Source of the DNA: Polyangiaceae bacterium
GTDB taxonomy: Bacteria; Myxococcota_A; Polyangia; Polyangiales; Polyangiaceae
Direction of reading: 5' to 3'
DNA: 64,000 bases
Assembly: GCA_023150915.1 (NCBI GenBank)
Contig: JAKLKA010000009.1
Coordinates: 1-64,000, forward strand
The translations under genes and the position numbers were made by a program. Below the pieces are notes generated by a model. It saw nothing but the letters and a program-made list of their open reading frames with translations. It was not told where the DNA came from and did no database searches. The first letter of the stretch is position 1, and each line of letters opens with the position of its first letter. Below are positions 27,810-35,156 of this stretch, one piece after another.

Positions 27810-29471
27810 TCAGCTCTTCCACGGCCGGCGCTCTAGCCAGAGCACGCGGCACGCTGCCGGCAGCGGCTTGCTCGGCTCCCAGGCCACCAGGCCCTTGCCG
27901 GCCTCGACCAGGGGAACCTCTTGGTCGAGCTCGGCCGGCGAGCGGCCTCGCCACGCTTCGGGCAGATCTCCGAAGCACAGCGCGGTGAGCCCGCCGTCTT
28001 CCACGAAGCCGACGGCGGCGTCGTCGAACAGCGCCGCGGCGGCGAACGTGGGAGCAGCGAGCCGTGACGTGCTGACCGCCAGATCCACCAGGCGCCCGGC
28101 CTCGAGCTTGGCGGCGAAGTCCGCGTCGAACACCCGCGCCACCGTGCGGATCTTCGGCGCCAGCCGCCGGGCGGTGAGCGTGATGGCCAGATTCGCCGCG
28201 TCGTCACCGGTCGCGGCGATGATGGCGGCGGCGCTCGCGACCTCGGCCCGCTGCAGCGTCGCGGCCAGCCGCGCGTCGCCCGCGACGAAAGGCCGGTTCT
28301 CGCGCAGCGCGGTCGAGAACTCGCCGTCGGGATCCACGTCCACGGCGACCACCTCGCGGCCGGCAGAGCGCAACGTGTCGACCGTGCGGTAGCCCACGTT
28401 GCCCAGCCCGACCACCACCACGTGGCCGCCCTTGGGGATGGGCGGGCGCCCCAGCTCTTTCCGCAGCTGCTCGCTCACCACGAAGCTGGTCGCGAAGGAA
28501 TACAGCACGGCCATGGTGACCGAGCCGAGCAGCATGAAGAGCGAGCCGTAGATCATCATCAACGGCCCCGAAGTGCGCGGGGTGATGTCGCCGTAGCCGG
28601 TGGTGGTGACGGTCGTGGCCGTGAAGTAGAGGGCCTCGACCAGGCTGATGGGCGGGTCGACCCCGATCCGGAAGACCACCACGCTGACCGCCGTCAGCGC
28701 GAGCAGCAACCCGAACGCGCGGCGCAGCGGCCGCGGCGAGTTCGCCCAGGCCGTGGCGAAGCTCTTCCGCACGCCGGCCTCCGCTCGGGCGCGCGGCGCT
28801 TGCTCGGTGCTGCCCCGGCTCTCGGGCAGTCGCAGATAGGCCGCGCGCTCGGCGACCACGGCCAGTCGATCGCCGGGGGCGAGCTTCTGACCCTCGGCGG
28901 CTCGTGGGGCGCCGCCGGCGATCACCCCGACACCGAAGCGCTCGCGGACCTCGCTGGCGTCGAGCCCTGCCAGGGGCGAGCCCTCGGTCACGTCCAGGTG
29001 GCCGACCAGCACCTCGGCATCGCCCAGGCTGAAGCCCGCGGTGATCTCGTGCCCCAGCGCACCGAACGCGACCACCGGCGCCGACAGCGCCGACACCCCG
29101 ACCGCCCGCGCGCGCCCGAAGCTCTGCTCGAGGGTGCGCGCCAGATCCCGATCGAAGACCCGGAGCGCGAGGCGCAGCGCAGCGCTGGCGCGCCGCGCGT
29201 CCAGCGCGACCTCCAGGTTCACCAGATCCGAGTCGGTCACGGCCACCAGCGCCGAGGCCCGCTCGATGCCGGCGCGGGCCAGCTCGGCGTCGTCCCGCGC
29301 GTCGCCCCGCAACACCTCGCCCCCACCCTGGGCGATGACGCGCACGCGATCGGCGCGGATCTCGAGGCCCAGCGCGGCCACCTTCACGCCCAGCCGCAGC
29401 AAGAGCCGGCTCACCCGGTAGCCCACGTGCCCCAACCCACAGACGACCACGTGCTCGCGCTCGGCGCTCAT
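27810..29471 (-). CDS. K+ channel/transport protein with RCK (TrkA) domains on both sides of the pore
   Basis: 553 residues from ATG 29471. The order is RCK_N-like NAD-binding domain (VVCGLGHVGYR, about 7-135), RCK_C/TrkA_C-like domain (about 140-215), two-helix pore (about 250-335) with selectivity filter TTGYGD at 290-295, then a second RCK_N domain (VVVVGLGNVGYR at about 351-362) to the end. The intact filter indicates a K+-selective channel gated by nucleotide or ion binding to RCK domains. Prokaryotic RCK channels usually have the RCK domain only after the pore. Stop lies 11 bases from the convergent haem-protein gene. Confidence 0.88.
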   Translation of the reverse strand: MSAEREHVVVCGLGHVGYRVSRLLLRLGVKVAALGLEIRADRVRVIAQGGGEVLRGDARDDAELARAGIERASALVAVTDSDLVNLEVALDARRASAALRLALRVFDRDLARTLEQSFGRARAVGVSALSAPVVAFGALGHEITAGFSLGDAEVLVGHLDVTEGSPLAGLDASEVRERFGVGVIAGGAPRAAEGQKLAPGDRLAVVAERAAYLRLPESRGSTEQAPRARAEAGVRKSFATAWANSPRPLRRAFGLLLALTAVSVVVFRIGVDPPISLVEALYFTATTVTTTGYGDITPRTSGPLMMIYGSLFMLLGSVTMAVLYSFATSFVVSEQLRKELGRPPIPKGGHVVVVGLGNVGYRTVDTLRSAGREVVAVDVDPDGEFSTALRENRPFVAGDARLAATLQRAEVASAAAIIAATGDDAANLAITLTARRLAPKIRTVARVFDADFAAKLEAGRLVDLAVSTSRLAAPTFAAAALFDDAAVGFVEDGGLTALCFGDLPEAWRGRSPAELDQEVPLVEAGKGLVAWEPSKPLPAACRVLWLERRPWKS

Positions 29472-29548
29472 TCGGGGGCGACTATACAACCCGCCCTCGG
29501 AAGCCAGAGGGGAGAGTGTTATCGTCGCCTCCGAACCCGGAGGGCGCC

Positions 29549-30739
29549 ATGCTCAGAACGCGGATTGTCGTCGATCTTCCCAGCGTCGAGGTCTTGCGGC
29601 AAAAGACCTTCGGCGAGGCCTTCCGCTCGCTCTTCGGGGCGCAGCTCGATCTGCGCACCGGCACCGAAGAGATCACGGTCACCGGGCTGGCGCTGATCCA
29701 GGCGCTGGCGAATGGCTTCCAGCTCGCCGGCATCACCAATGCAGTCGCGTTCATCGTCGATCACAAGGTGGTCTACAAGGACCCGGCCGACCAAGGCAAC
29801 GACTTGCCCCTGATCATGGCGGCCTGCCAGCAGTCGCGCCTGCTCACGCGCAAGTTCGGCGAGATGCACCTGGTGATGTCGCATGCCGAGAACGGCATGC
29901 TGGTGATCGCCGACGTGCACCTTCGCCGCGAGACCCTCAAGGGTCAGGCGGAAATGGTGGTGGACCTCTCGGGTCGGATCGACGAGCTGCGCATCGCCCG
30001 GGGCGAGACGGCCGCGGCGTATGCGGCGCGCGTGCGGGCGTTCGCGCGGACGCCGCAGGTGGCCGAGGCGTGGGAGCGCGCCTTCGAGAGCTTCGCGCGG
30101 CGCCTGGCGGCGGCGCTGGGCACGTCGCTTCCCGGGTCGCGCATCGCCGTCGAGCCGGTGAGGATCCAGCTGATCCGCCCGGGCGAGAAGCAGGTGGGGC
30201 GCTTTCGCCACTTGCAGTTCGGGGACGCGGTGCAGCGCCCGACCTATCGCCCCGCCCCGGCGCGCGAGCGCCTCGGCGCGTACGCCGACCCCTTCTACTA
30301 TTACTACTTCGACCCGTACTACGACTTCATGACGTGGGTCATCTTGGACGACATGGCCCGCCACAACTACGTGTGGAGCACGGCGCGCCTGGCCATCGTG
30401 GACGAGCACGGCGTGGACGTCACCGAGGGCGGAGCCAAGCCGCCCAAGCAGGTGCTGCGCGAGACGCTGGATGAAGACGCCGTGGACTTCTCGGACGCCG
30501 GGCTGCTCTTGATCTCGGACGACATCGACGACAGCGGCGAACTCTCGCTCGACGACCTGGCCTCGGGCAACGACTCGGACGCGTGGGGCGCCGACGCTGA
30601 CGCGAGCGGCGACAGCGCCGGCGACGGCGGCAGTGACGGCGGCGGTGGCAGCGACGGTGGAAGCAGCGACGGTGGAAGCAGCGACGGCGGGTCGTCGTGC
30701 GGGTCGTCGTGCGGCGGCGGTTGCGGCGGCGGGTACTGA
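29549..30739 (+). CDS. Uncharacterised protein with Gly/Ser/Asp/Cys-rich C-terminal tail
   Basis: 396 residues from ATG 29549 (GGAGG just upstream). No signal peptide. Residues 1-225 look like a globular alpha/beta protein of unknown family (VVDLPSVEVLRQKTFGEAF; FIVDHKVVYKDPAD). An aromatic-rich segment (PFYYYYFDPYYDFMTW) follows near 250. The last 75 residues are low complexity: Asp/Ser acidic, then GGSSDGGSSD repeats, ending GGSSCGSSCGGGCGGGY. Two identical 12-bp DNA units (30689-30712) encode GSSC. The radical SAM frame begins six bases after its stop, so they share a transcript. The tail resembles peptides modified by radical SAM or azole-forming enzymes, which makes it a candidate substrate. 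No function is known. Confidence 0.8.
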   Translation: MLRTRIVVDLPSVEVLRQKTFGEAFRSLFGAQLDLRTGTEEITVTGLALIQALANGFQLAGITNAVAFIVDHKVVYKDPADQGNDLPLIMAACQQSRLLTRKFGEMHLVMSHAENGMLVIADVHLRRETLKGQAEMVVDLSGRIDELRIARGETAAAYAARVRAFARTPQVAEAWERAFESFARRLAAALGTSLPGSRIAVEPVRIQLIRPGEKQVGRFRHLQFGDAVQRPTYRPAPARERLGAYADPFYYYYFDPYYDFMTWVILDDMARHNYVWSTARLAIVDEHGVDVTEGGAKPPKQVLRETLDEDAVDFSDAGLLLISDDIDDSGELSLDDLASGNDSDAWGADADASGDSAGDGGSDGGGGSDGGSSDGGSSDGGSSCGSSCGGGCGGGY

Positions 30740-30745
30740 GCCGGC

Positions 30746-33274
30746 ATGCTGCGTGAAGGGCGGCTCTTCGGCCGGACCAGCCGGCACTTCACACTGCAGT
30801 GGCACCTGACGCACGCCTGCACCGAAGCCTGTCGCCACTGCTACGATCGCTCACCCGTGGCCACGCTGGGCTTGCCGGCCGCGCGTGACGTGCTGGCCCA
30901 GCTGGAAGCGTTCTGCACGCACCATCAGGTGTCCGGCGGCGTCTGCTTCACCGGTGGGGACCCGCTCCTCTACCCCCACTTCTTCGAGCTGTACCGCGCC
31001 GCGGCCGCGGCCGACTTCTCGCTGAGCATATTGGGAAACCCGGCCAGCGATGACGCCCTCGACGCCCTGCTCGCCATCCGCAAGCCCCGCTACTTCCAGC
31101 TCAGCCTCGAGGGTGTCGAGGCGGTCAACGACGCGATCCGCGGGCCCGGGCACTACGCCCGCGTGATGGAGTTCTTGGGGCGCCTGCGCGCGCGTGGCGT
31201 GCGCGCGCACGTGATGCTCACCCTGCACCGCGAGAACCTGGGCAGCGTCGAGGCGCTGGCCGATGCGCTGGCCGGCAAGGTGGACCGCTTCCTGTACAAC
31301 CGGCTGGCTCAGGTCGGAGAGGGCGCAGATCTCGAGCAGCCCACGCAAGACGAGTACGTCGCGTTCATGCGGCGCTGGTTCTTGCTGGCCAAGAAACACC
31401 GCTTCGTGGGCTTCAAGGACAACCTGCTGAACATTCCCCGGCATCACTTTGGCCAGGCGCTCACGGGCGGTTGCACTGGGGCGGGGTGTGGCGCTGCGTT
31501 CAACTTCCTGGCGCTCTTGCCGAACGGCGAGCTGCATGCGTGTCGCAAGCTGCCTTCGGCGCTGGGCAGCGTGGTGGAGCAGGGGCTCGAGGCCGTCTAC
31601 CAATCGAGCGGCGCCGAGCGGTATCGCGCGGGCTGCGAGGCTTGCATGCTGTGCCCGATCCGCAACGCCTGCGGTGGGTGCCTGGCAGTGAGTCACGGCA
31701 TGGGGCTCGACCCGTTCCAGCAGGTGGACCCGCACTGCTTCTTCGACGAGCGGGCCGAGCGGATCCGTGCGGCGGCGCGGGCAGGCTCAGGCGCCCAGGT
31801 GGCGCAGCACCTCGGCGGCAACGGCGTCGGGGGCAGGCGAGGCGTCGATCCGCACGCCGAGCGCCTCGTACAGCCCGCGCCGCTGGTCCAGCTCCGCCGT
31901 GATCGCAGCAGCGGTGTTGCCGCGCAGCAGGTCGGGGCGATGCACCTGGTCAGCGGGGAGGGCGGCGAGGCGCGCCGCCAGAACGGCCGGCGAAACGTCC
32001 AGGAAGAACACGCGCGCCCCGTTGCACAAGAGGGCGCGGGTGCCCGGGGGCAGAACGGTGCCGGCGCCGGCGGAAATCACCGCGCCGCTCGGGGGCAGGT
32101 GCTCGCGCAAGAAGGCGCGTTCGGCGGTGCGAAAGGCCGGCATGCCGTGGCGCTCGATGAACGCGGCGACGGGCCCCAAGCGCTGCTCGATGATCGCGTC
32201 CACGTCCAGGTGCGGGCGCCCCAGGCGCTGGGCCACCCGGGCGCCGACCGTGGTCTTGCCCGCGCAGGTGTAACCGATCAAGACGACGTTGGCGGTCATC
32301 GGCTGCTACGCGAAGCAGGGCGCGGGCCCGGCCTGCTGGTGCTCGAGCTGACCCGGCGCTGCGGACGAAAGTGCGACGTGTGCTTCCACCGCGACATGCG
32401 CGAAATCAGGGTAGCACAGGCCGACATGTCGCTGGCCGTGGCGCGACGCGCCCTCGAGCTGGCAAGCGGGGCTGGTGTGCGGCGCGTGCGGCTCACGGGC
32501 GGCGAGCCGCTGCGCCACCCGGCCTTCGCAGCGCTGCTGGGCGAGATCCGCGAGCGTGGCTTCGAGACCTGGGTCAACACCGCGGGGCTGACCGAGGGCG
32601 GCACGCCGTGGCAGCTCTTGGGGCAGCAGGCCGACGACGTCTTGCTTCCGCTGCGCGACGCCGAGCAGCGCGCCGAGATCGCCGACGCCGTGCGGGCCAT
32701 CCGTCGGGGCGGTGCGCCCCGCGTGCGCCTGGGCGTGGTGCTCACGCCCGAGCACGTGGCCGAGCTGCCGGCCATCGCCGGACTTTCCCGCGAGCTGGGC
32801 TGCTTCCTCGAGGCGTACCGGGTGATGTCCGTTCCGGGGCAGCTGGCGGGCAGCACCGCCGGCGAGCTGGCACACGCCCTGGAGCAGCTGGACGCGGTGA
32901 ACCGCTGGTTCCCACCCGACACTCGCGTGCGGATCGCCAACGCGGTGCCCTTCTGCGTGGTGCCCGATCGCCGGCTCGTGGCTCGAAATGGCTTCGGCGC
33001 ACGCTTCGACGACGGGCGCGATCGCTTGGTGGTTTCCCCCGAAGGGGAGATCCGCCCCAGCTATTCGCTGCGCCTGGGGCTGGGGCACGTGGATCACACC
33101 ACGCTGATCGAAGCCTGGCAGCACCCGACCTTGCTCGCGCTCCACTCGGCGGGCGGGTTGCCGGCCGCGTGCCGGTCGTGCAGCGAGCTGGCCGTCTGCC
33201 GCGGTGGCAGCCGGCACGAGGCTTTGGCCGCCAGCGGAGACCTCGGGGGGATGGACCCGCTGGCGCTCGGTTGA
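30746..33274 (+). CDS. Double radical SAM open frame (SbtM-like domain, antisense linker, second radical SAM domain)
   Basis: One uninterrupted 842-codon frame from ATG 30746. Domain 1 (about 1-345) is a radical SAM/SPASM enzyme: THACTEACRHC (Cys25, 29, 32), FTGGDPL, and auxiliary-cluster cysteines in GGCTGAGCG, LHAC, CEACMLCPIRNACGGC and PHC. The pattern resembles the SbtM-type maturases of the selenobiotic peptide group. Residues about 346-517 are antisense, codon-aligned, to the shikimate kinase gene and look like a shadow rather than a real domain. Domain 2 (about 525-842) has TRRCGRKCDVC, LTGGEPLRHP, and a C-terminal CRSCSELAVC. No stop separates them. Either a true fusion, or two genes of which the first lost its stop and the second starts near GTG 32339. 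Confidence 0.75.
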   Translation: MLREGRLFGRTSRHFTLQWHLTHACTEACRHCYDRSPVATLGLPAARDVLAQLEAFCTHHQVSGGVCFTGGDPLLYPHFFELYRAAAAADFSLSILGNPASDDALDALLAIRKPRYFQLSLEGVEAVNDAIRGPGHYARVMEFLGRLRARGVRAHVMLTLHRENLGSVEALADALAGKVDRFLYNRLAQVGEGADLEQPTQDEYVAFMRRWFLLAKKHRFVGFKDNLLNIPRHHFGQALTGGCTGAGCGAAFNFLALLPNGELHACRKLPSALGSVVEQGLEAVYQSSGAERYRAGCEACMLCPIRNACGGCLAVSHGMGLDPFQQVDPHCFFDERAERIRAAARAGSGAQVAQHLGGNGVGGRRGVDPHAERLVQPAPLVQLRRDRSSGVAAQQVGAMHLVSGEGGEARRQNGRRNVQEEHARPVAQEGAGARGQNGAGAGGNHRAARGQVLAQEGAFGGAKGRHAVALDERGDGPQALLDDRVHVQVRAPQALGHPGADRGLARAGVTDQDDVGGHRLLREAGRGPGLLVLELTRRCGRKCDVCFHRDMREIRVAQADMSLAVARRALELASGAGVRRVRLTGGEPLRHPAFAALLGEIRERGFETWVNTAGLTEGGTPWQLLGQQADDVLLPLRDAEQRAEIADAVRAIRRGGAPRVRLGVVLTPEHVAELPAIAGLSRELGCFLEAYRVMSVPGQLAGSTAGELAHALEQLDAVNRWFPPDTRVRIANAVPFCVVPDRRLVARNGFGARFDDGRDRLVVSPEGEIRPSYSLRLGLGHVDHTTLIEAWQHPTLLALHSAGGLPAACRSCSELAVCRGGSRHEALAASGDLGGMDPLALG
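31787..32299 (-). CDS. Shikimate kinase-like protein, nested antisense
   Basis: 170 residues from ATG 32299. It phosphorylates shikimate in aromatic amino-acid synthesis if family function holds. Walker A is GYTCAGKTT; the substrate residues appear in LDVDAIIE (Asp pair), FRTAERAFL (Arg and Glu), the Gly-rich loop SAGAGTVLP, RPDL, and LDQRRGLYE. Length is normal. Unusually, it lies wholly within the frame of the double radical SAM gene on the opposite strand, with codons aligned. Its stop TGA is read as TCA (Ser) on the plus strand. Given the family likeness I think this is the real gene in this interval, and I assign the name aroK only tentatively. Confidence 0.8.
   Translation of the reverse strand: MTANVVLIGYTCAGKTTVGARVAQRLGRPHLDVDAIIEQRLGPVAAFIERHGMPAFRTAERAFLREHLPPSGAVISAGAGTVLPPGTRALLCNGARVFFLDVSPAVLAARLAALPADQVHRPDLLRGNTAAAITAELDQRRGLYEALGVRIDASPAPDAVAAEVLRHLGA
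32339..33274 (+). CDS. Second radical SAM domain: alternative separate gene
   Basis: Alternative reading of the 3' part of the 30746-33274 frame, given because the intervening antisense stretch is unlikely to be protein. The domain begins at LLVLELTRRCGRKCDVC, but the only start-like codon close to the right place is GTG 32339, which would cut the first beta strand. The missing good start favours either the fusion or a lost start. It has LTGGEPL, then TGLS-like loops, SPEGEIRPSYSLR, and CRSCSELAVCRGG for an auxiliary cluster. This layout is that of peptide-modifying radical SAM enzymes. The last base is the stop shared with the long frame. Confidence 0.45.
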   Translation: MLELTRRCGRKCDVCFHRDMREIRVAQADMSLAVARRALELASGAGVRRVRLTGGEPLRHPAFAALLGEIRERGFETWVNTAGLTEGGTPWQLLGQQADDVLLPLRDAEQRAEIADAVRAIRRGGAPRVRLGVVLTPEHVAELPAIAGLSRELGCFLEAYRVMSVPGQLAGSTAGELAHALEQLDAVNRWFPPDTRVRIANAVPFCVVPDRRLVARNGFGARFDDGRDRLVVSPEGEIRPSYSLRLGLGHVDHTTLIEAWQHPTLLALHSAGGLPAACRSCSELAVCRGGSRHEALAASGDLGGMDPLALG

Positions 33275-33306
33275 CGCTGCCCGCGCACCGGGGCACGAGC
33301 GCCCGC

Positions 33307-34467
33307 ATGCGTTTCTCGGTGTTGGCTCTGGGGCTCGCGCTCCTTTCGGGTTGTGGGAGCTCGGACGACTCGAGCTCGGGCAGCGGCGGCACGGCCGGCA
33401 CGGGCGGCGGCGGCGGCACGGGCGGCAGCGGCGGCGCGGGCGGCGCGGGCGGCGCGGCGGGCACGGGTGGGCAGTCTGCCGAGTGCGCGGCGCTGGGTCA
33501 GAAGCTGCAGGCGGCGCTGGACCAAGCCCGCCAGAGCACCGGCAGCCGCGATGCGGCGCTCGCCGTCACCACCGAGAAGTGCGGCACGAACGCGTTCGTC
33601 AGCGGCGAGTCGAAGCTGACGGGCAGCGAGCTGTTCCGCATCGGCAGCGTCACCAAGACCTATGTGTCGGCGGTGGTGCTGCGCCTGGTGGGCGCGGGCA
33701 AGCTGAGCCTGGACGACAAGCTCGACGGGTGGGTGAGCGGGGTGCCGAACGGCAGCGCCATCACGGTGCGCATGCTGCTCAATCACACCAGCGGCATCTT
33801 CAGCTACACCCAAGACCCGTCTTTCTTGTCGGACTTGACCAAGGCGTGGACGCCCGACGAGCTGGTCCAGCTCGCCGCGTCGCACGGGGCCGTGAACCCG
33901 CCCGGCACGAAGTGGGACTACTCCAACACCAACTACGTGTGCCTGGGCATCATCGCCGAGAAGGTCGGCGGCGGGCCCATCGCGCAGCAGATCCGGGCTC
34001 AGCTGCTCGCGCCGAATCAGCTCGATCACACCTTCTTCGACGGCGGCGAAAAGCTGGGCGACACGCTGGCGCCGGGCTTCGCCAAAGACGGAACGGACTC
34101 GACCTACGCGCTTCACCCGTCGGGGCCCTGGGCGGCCGGCGCGATGACGGCGACGGTGGCCGACACGGCGCGCTGGATCGAGCTGTACGCGACCGGCAAG
34201 GCCGTGCCCCCGGCGCAGCAGGCCGAGATGGAGAAGGGCGAGGCGGTCGGGTCCAACGTGACCTATGGCCTGGGCGTGATGATGCTCGACGCGGCCATCA
34301 CCGGCGGCGCCGGCAAGGCCTACGGCCACAACGGCAGCATCAACGGCTACCACACCCAGGCGTTCCACTTTCGCGATAGCAAGACCACCATCGTGAGCAT
34401 CGTCAACCAGGACGGCGCCGATGCGAACGACGTGACCGTGGCCGCGCTCACCACCTTGTTTCCGTGA
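33307..34467 (+). CDS. Serine beta-lactamase-like lipoprotein hydrolase
   Basis: 386 residues from ATG 33307. Lipoprotein signal MRFSVLALGLALLSGC (Cys 16) and a Gly/Thr/Ala linker to about 55. The domain matches the class C beta-lactamase/DD-peptidase/esterase fold: SxxK at Ser114-Lys117 (IGSVTKTY), YxN at Tyr205-Asn207 (YSNTNY), and a third motif HNGSINGY with His in place of the usual Lys, as is common in esterase-type members. The catalytic residues are present. A role in peptidoglycan or ester hydrolysis is likely; lactamase activity is not implied. The next gene's GTG overlaps its stop. Confidence 0.9.
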   Translation: MRFSVLALGLALLSGCGSSDDSSSGSGGTAGTGGGGGTGGSGGAGGAGGAAGTGGQSAECAALGQKLQAALDQARQSTGSRDAALAVTTEKCGTNAFVSGESKLTGSELFRIGSVTKTYVSAVVLRLVGAGKLSLDDKLDGWVSGVPNGSAITVRMLLNHTSGIFSYTQDPSFLSDLTKAWTPDELVQLAASHGAVNPPGTKWDYSNTNYVCLGIIAEKVGGGPIAQQIRAQLLAPNQLDHTFFDGGEKLGDTLAPGFAKDGTDSTYALHPSGPWAAGAMTATVADTARWIELYATGKAVPPAQQAEMEKGEAVGSNVTYGLGVMMLDAAITGGAGKAYGHNGSINGYHTQAFHFRDSKTTIVSIVNQDGADANDVTVAALTTLFP

Positions 34468-35156
34468 GACTGCCCGCCGCGCTCGCGATCTTGGCCGCGC
34501 CCTTTTCGGCGCGCGCCGAGCCCCCGGGTCCGCTGTTCCACCCCGACGGCCCGGGTGCGTATCGGCTTCGAGTGGCTGCAGGCGCGCTGGTCGACATCTT
34601 GCCGCGCCAGACCGTCGAGTCCGAGCTCCGGACCGTGCCGCAGGTGACCAGCGACGCGCGCTTCGGCCTGCCGCAGGGCTTCTCTGCCAGCGCGCGCCTC
34701 AGGGCCATCGTGCTCACCAATCAGCTCGAGCTGGGCGGCGGTTGGTCGCACCGCGTGGGGGACTTCTCGTTCGGCGTGACGGACCACTTCGGGGTCTGGT
34801 ACGGCATCGTCGAGCTCGAGGGCTTCGATACCACCGCCTGGGGCTACCTGAACCAACCCGGCGTGAGCGTGGGCGTGCCGATGGGTGACGTGCGGTTTTC
34901 GCTCGGCGTCGAGGGCATCATCATGCTGTCGCAGCACGTTCGGCTCGGCGACACGACCCACGTGAGCCGCCAGAACGTGAGCCTGGCGGGCGCACAGGCG
35001 ACGTTGATCGTCGAGAACTTCGTGGGGGAGCGCGGCGACGCGTACTACGGTATTGCCGCGATGTACGCGGCGCCGGACTATCAAGCCTGGATCGCGTTCT
35101 CGGATTCGCGTTCGCGCCTCTGGTACCCCAGGCTTCTGGCTGGCTATGCGTTTTGA
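34464..35156 (+). CDS. Small secreted beta-barrel-like protein
   Basis: 230 residues from GTG 34464, which overlaps the upstream stop by four bases; the signal peptide MRLPAALAILAAPFSARAEP follows. The rest alternates hydrophobic/polar residues in strands ending in aromatic residues and finishes with WYPRLLAGYAF, an outer-membrane-barrel style C-terminal Phe. No catalytic motif. Its gene product likely sits in the outer membrane as an 8- to 10-strand barrel. It belongs to a transcript with the serine hydrolase upstream and the phosphodiesterase downstream (11-base overlap). Confidence 0.75.
   Translation: MRLPAALAILAAPFSARAEPPGPLFHPDGPGAYRLRVAAGALVDILPRQTVESELRTVPQVTSDARFGLPQGFSASARLRAIVLTNQLELGGGWSHRVGDFSFGVTDHFGVWYGIVELEGFDTTAWGYLNQPGVSVGVPMGDVRFSLGVEGIIMLSQHVRLGDTTHVSRQNVSLAGAQATLIVENFVGERGDAYYGIAAMYAAPDYQAWIAFSDSRSRLWYPRLLAGYAF

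Follow-up and report, generated by a model that had tools for sequence, protein, structure and literature searches.

SbtM (TIGR04082) is a radical SAM/SPASM maturase that makes a thiooxazole on a cysteine substrate, as shown in vitro for an SbtM other than the one treated here (PMC11002830). Coding frames that face each other on opposite strands over hundreds of bases have been described for pop/ompA of E. coli O157:H7 (PMC7103648) and for adm/dmdR1 of Streptomyces (via PMC3454372). In both cases, the overlapping frame is itself a protein of interest. Long ORFs are in excess in frame -1, which earlier authors attributed mainly to codon usage (PMC3454372).

The locus compared here with these systems lies in a 64,000-nucleotide stretch of a Polyangiaceae genome, hereafter the window. 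As in pop/ompA and adm/dmdR1, both strands carry a coding frame for hundreds of bases. It differs from both in that the plus-strand overlap links two known domains and provides no new protein, and in that the conserved member, of known type, is the gene nested on the minus strand. Its parts belong to known families or superfamilies, and their arrangement differs from the described antisense pairs. Among open-licence papers, we found no description of a conserved gene nested antisense in a fusion linker.

The 842-codon frame and its parts

The first-pass annotation of this DNA had placed two radical SAM domains in one frame, and this was borne out. ORF reading of the window finds a single open frame of 842 codons with zero internal stops at 30746-33274 of the plus strand. 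Its 842-aa translation is matched twice by PF04055 in a Pfam profile search and carries CxxxCxxC motifs at residues 25 and 539 (Table 1). The stretch between the domains had been described as antisense to, and codon-aligned with, a shikimate kinase gene. This likewise holds, the gene being shikimate kinase-like and 170 aa long: the plus-strand codon TCA at 31787-31789 faces the gene's TGA exactly, and the two frames are therefore codon-aligned. Where the two domains are considered as separate products, they are called enzyme 1 and enzyme 2.

Table 1. Features of the locus, with positions in the window
Feature	Position	Strand	Basis or remark
Precursor-like gene, tail ...DGGSSCGSSCGGGCGGGY	29549..30739	+	similar tails at other SbtM loci; N-terminal part 91% identical in G002
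Domain 1, SbtM-type radical SAM/SPASM maturase, residues 1-332	30746..31741	+	TIGR04082 464.5 bits; PF04055, PF13186; dN/dS 0.16
CxxxCxxC of domain 1, residues 25-32	30818..30841	+	
C-terminal tail of domain 1, ahead of kinase; expected stop missing	31742..31786	+	in homologues, stop at most 30 codons from residue 332
Shikimate kinase-like gene, 170 aa, ATG at 32299, TGA at 31789-31787	31787..32299	-	PF01202, PDB matches, dN/dS 0.21
Linker codons 348-518, antisense and codon-aligned to kinase; predicted disordered, protein unconstrained	31787..32299	+	dN/dS 1.40; NS rate 0.354; pLDDT 23-32
In-frame ATG (G002: GTG), candidate internal start within antisense stretch	31940..31942	+	others at 32147, 32210
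Junction codons 519-531, kinase start to GTG 32339	32300..32338	+	dN/dS 0.14
Domain 2, radical SAM/SPASM-like, PqqE-like, residue 528 to stop	32327..33274	+	PF04055/PF13353; TIGR02109; 6c8v; dN/dS 0.19
GTG, candidate own start of domain 2	32339..32341	+	also conserved in G002 and in G039; not preceded by a Shine-Dalgarno-like sequence
CxxxCxxC of domain 2, residues 539-546	32360..32383	+	

The frame is also intact, with zero indels and at 85% nucleotide identity, in G002 (JACPVJ010000193.1), a groundwater metagenome-assembled genome of the same genus as the window genome. As expected of a two-domain fusion, both domains thus share one stop-free frame in more than one species (the window genome and G002). 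A missing stop or a frameshift error could in principle join separate genes, and the assemblies give some room for this: G002 is metagenome-assembled, and the assembly that holds the window is split into 295 contigs. However, the two assemblies, 85% identical, align codon for codon free of indels, and substitutions to either side of the linker are of the coding type; such an artefact, which we consider extremely improbable, is nearly refuted.

Domain 1 scored 464.5 bits against TIGR04082, above the equivalog cut-off of 350. It has the radical SAM CxxxCxxC and SPASM cysteines of SbtM, the latter within a PF13186 match at residues 248-303, and adjoins a gene with a Cys/Gly-rich tail. It differs from the family in two respects. 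The N-terminal part of the 516-position model is absent (the match begins at position 196), as in many short-form homologues, and no stop follows, the frame running on into a second radical SAM domain. Every one of about 75 further SbtM homologues, drawn from many phyla, has its stop no more than 30 codons from residue 332 (in most, no more than 10), whereas read-through of about 500 codons beyond this residue was found only in the window genome and G002. What is unusual about enzyme 1 is its missing stop.

The precursor-like gene ends 6 nt upstream of enzyme 1 in a Cys/Gly-rich tail, SSCGSSCGGGCGGGY. Tails of this kind also end just upstream of short-form SbtM homologues in other genomes. Judged by this tail type, and not by a family model, enzyme 1 has the adjacent Cys/Sec precursor of SbtM systems, and the gene is, on the sequence evidence, the probable substrate of the maturase. 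An unnamed family of protein-size thiooxazole precursors may exist. The N-terminal part of the precursor-like gene is long, conserved and of no known family; across several phyla, short-form SbtM genes have tails like DGGSSCGSSCGGGCGGGY upstream.

The nested kinase scored 103.6 bits against PF01202 SKI (gathering cut-off 22.1), and its best PDB matches are solved shikimate kinases. Like AroK/AroL, it has the P-loop (GYTCAGKTT), D-x-D, FRxxE and RxxxY positions. It differs in lying antisense inside a fused frame and in falling under every NCBIfam equivalog cut-off for shikimate kinase (best NF002988, 88.8 vs 161). The genome has three SKI-type genes, counting the nested one. Given the missed cut-off and the two other SKI-type genes, we therefore call it shikimate kinase-like. 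Since G002 alone yielded a close orthologue, it is an accessory kinase, possibly with a substrate other than shikimate. An extended start in G002 (GTG, 200 aa) was rejected, the minus frame upstream of the ATG being unconstrained (dN/dS 1.40).

Selection on the two strands and the open antisense frame

A comparison of codon substitution on both strands had been proposed in the first-pass annotation. Our selection tests rest on the alignment of two species, the window genome and G002. Counted at plus-strand codon positions 1, 2 and 3, domain 1 has 30/36/120 differences, the linker 52/16/22 and domain 2 33/25/90. Within the kinase, the variable position thus shifts from plus position 3 to plus position 1, which is kinase position 3. 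The dN/dS ratio was 0.16 in domain 1, 0.19 in domain 2 and 0.21 on the kinase strand, against 1.40 for the linker in the plus frame. The kinase, described in the first-pass annotation as apparently intact, is a constrained gene. Of the two products of a functional antisense pair, purifying selection is found for the minus-strand gene and not for the plus-strand product.

Changes that are silent in the kinase and replace a plus-strand residue occurred at 0.354 per site, as fast as changes at the plus-strand silent sites of domain 2, which is the neutral level. In a simulation with the kinase alone constrained, plus-strand residues were as conserved as observed (P 0.55-0.58). No selection on the linker's plus reading was detected between the two species by either the dN/dS or the simulation. 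From the strand-specific rates and the simulation, it follows that the kinase is a real gene and that the spacer sequence has no detectable plus-strand function. In the same neutral simulation, a plus-strand stop arose in 27% of runs and 73% stayed open. That the frame has stayed open in two species therefore does not prove its use, and we rejected this retention as evidence of selection.

In a codon-aligned antisense frame, the TTA, CTA and TCA codons of the kinase alone would read as stops. Together these make up 0.22% of codons in 40 long ORFs of the window. This codon usage gives a probability of 0.69 that 170 antisense codons are open, and among real gene windows of that length 75% are open. 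A special cause for the open antisense frame was accordingly rejected. The match in phase between linker and domain 2 would be expected by chance in about one case in three.

The first-pass annotation had further held that a stop at 31787 (TCA to TGA) and the kinase stop are mutually exclusive. This stands for position 31787 and not for the rest of the frame: 25 other single-base changes close frame 1 with the kinase protein unaltered, two of them in codons before the kinase (335 and 338) and 23 inside it. The idea that the boundaries of three genes are locked together fails because of these 25 kinase-silent routes, and codon usage is enough to explain the open linker.

The joined frame might be an unused coincidence, with enzyme 1 ended by transcription termination or proteolysis and the antisense frame open through codon usage. 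Chance openness of 69-75% for 170-codon antisense frames and the 73% of neutral runs that keep the frame open are in keeping with this. Nevertheless, there is no terminator-like site on the plus strand between 31500 and 32500, and the stop that all other homologues have is absent from both species; we hold this explanation to be quite improbable.

Linker, second domain and the case for one polypeptide

AlphaFold2, given an alignment of 24 sequences, assigned a pLDDT mostly above 80 to residues 11-240, with lower values in the SPASM part. Over much of domain 2, values were mostly 70-92, with weak stretches in between, and for residues 351-520 they were about 23-32. The pTM was 0.45, so the relative placing of the two domains is not predicted. 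Hydrophobic residues make up 0.18 of the linker against 0.32-0.35 of the domains, as expected because hydrophobic NTN codons read backwards as NAN.

Domain 2, which makes up the final 315 residues of the frame, is closest to PqqE-like models and aligns along its length with PqqE, from residue 528 for TIGR02109 and with PDB 6c8v as structure match. Unlike PqqE and NirJ-like radical SAM-SPASM proteins, it fits no described family: it scores far under all family cut-offs (48.9 vs 381 bits), and close homologues were found only in G002 and G039, the latter a genome of another family.

In the main rival reading, translation of enzyme 2 would mostly begin internally, at GTG 32339 or at an ATG/GTG inside the antisense stretch (31940, 32147 or 32210), and yield a separate protein, with the tail of enzyme 1 tolerated or trimmed by proteases and the fusion a by-product. 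The GTG at 32339 is conserved in the window, G002 and G039 and leaves seven residues ahead of the first Cys of domain 2, and the absence of plus-strand constraint on the linker also fits such a start. Against it, no Shine-Dalgarno-like sequence precedes this GTG, and a stop in frame 1 never arose despite the 25 silent routes. In addition, the PqqE model (from residue 528) and the opening strand of domain 2, predicted by AlphaFold2 at residues 530-534, both begin before the GTG, the strand by two residues. In the window, no in-frame ATG, GTG or TTG occurs from 32213 to 32338. Given the predicted strand and this lack of starts, an independent start at 32339 would therefore be somewhat awkward but possible. 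We regard separate production of enzyme 2 as unlikely, if well worth bearing in mind; an internal start and a fusion are compatible and not mutually exclusive.

The junction, 13 codons outside the kinase, reads RLLR(E/D)AGxxPGLL in both the window and G002. Its dN/dS is 0.14 in the plus frame against 1.40 in the minus frame (Fisher p 0.008), and permuting with the types of base change preserved gave p 0.14. This coding signal is small, test-dependent and only suggestive.

Enzyme 1 has no stop in either species, and ribosomes making it must therefore enter the linker. A real fusion with a linker of antisense DNA, one of the options originally put forward, is supported by 842 codons free of indels at 85% identity and by the constraint on both domains and the kinase. 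We consider it rather probable that the loss of a stop joined two radical SAM enzymes through a flexible tether while the kinase is still made from the opposite strand. The order of events that we infer is as follows. The stop codon of an SbtM-type maturase gene would have been lost in a myxobacterial ancestor from which two species of a single genus descend. The antisense frame of the neighbouring minus-strand kinase, which like the genome's other genes hardly uses TTA, CTA or TCA, would already have been open, and would have happened to be in phase with the second radical SAM gene beyond the kinase. The product would be an 842-aa protein with an SbtM-type domain, a disordered spacer of about 190 residues and a second radical SAM domain, and the kinase gene, intact on the opposite strand, would be the sole constraint on the spacer's sequence. 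The most likely use would be for both domains to act on the Cys/Gly-rich tail encoded upstream, with the spacer as a flexible tether. That the two-enzyme radical SAM maturase is one polypeptide, its spacer of about 170 residues derived from the antisense of an intact and still-selected kinase gene, has in our estimate slightly better than an even chance.

If the protein is made, the locus would offer a concrete route for gene fusions across an oppositely oriented gene in GC-rich genomes. The antisense frame would be open by default, hydrophilic and disordered, so that a lost stop would suffice and the gene in between would keep working. SbtM thiooxazole systems would also gain an uncharacterised partner in domain 2. 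Gene callers that forbid long overlaps on opposite strands would drop either the kinase or the fusion.

Distribution and neighbourhood of the locus

The whole arrangement is known from two species only. Searches of 184 genomes of the order, 290 and 318 of the class and 379 of the phylum (overlapping draws) returned no further copies beyond G002 and a domain 2 at a contig edge in G039. Neither enzyme 1 nor enzyme 2 has a close match in G001, the genus's third genome, and domain 2 was not found in plasmid records. The first-pass annotation had named as evidence against a fusion any relatives in which frame 1 stops near 31790 and the second gene is separate. The sole relative with all three genes keeps the fused frame; distant relatives do stop near 31790, but without the kinase or enzyme 2 as neighbours.

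In G039, the domain 2 copy is 73% identical and lies at the very edge of contig 553 (1-1014). Neither an SbtM nor a close kinase was found in this assembly, which is 74% complete.

The block common to the window and G002 comprises the precursor-like gene, enzyme 1, the antisense kinase, enzyme 2 and a serine hydrolase. Similarity covers 29520-34468 of the window, and the flanks differ. The upstream neighbour (27810-29489) is of TrkA/potassium channel type by sequence, and its counterpart in G002, 83% identical, sits on a different contig; the block, at 85%, is therefore about as diverged as that gene. The block has different neighbours in the two genomes: either it was relocated whole in one lineage, or its flanks were rearranged. 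The serine hydrolase after the fusion (33307-34467, plus strand), which belongs to the block conserved in both species, is lipoprotein-like and has SVTK, YSN and HNG motifs as in beta-lactamase/DD-peptidase folds.
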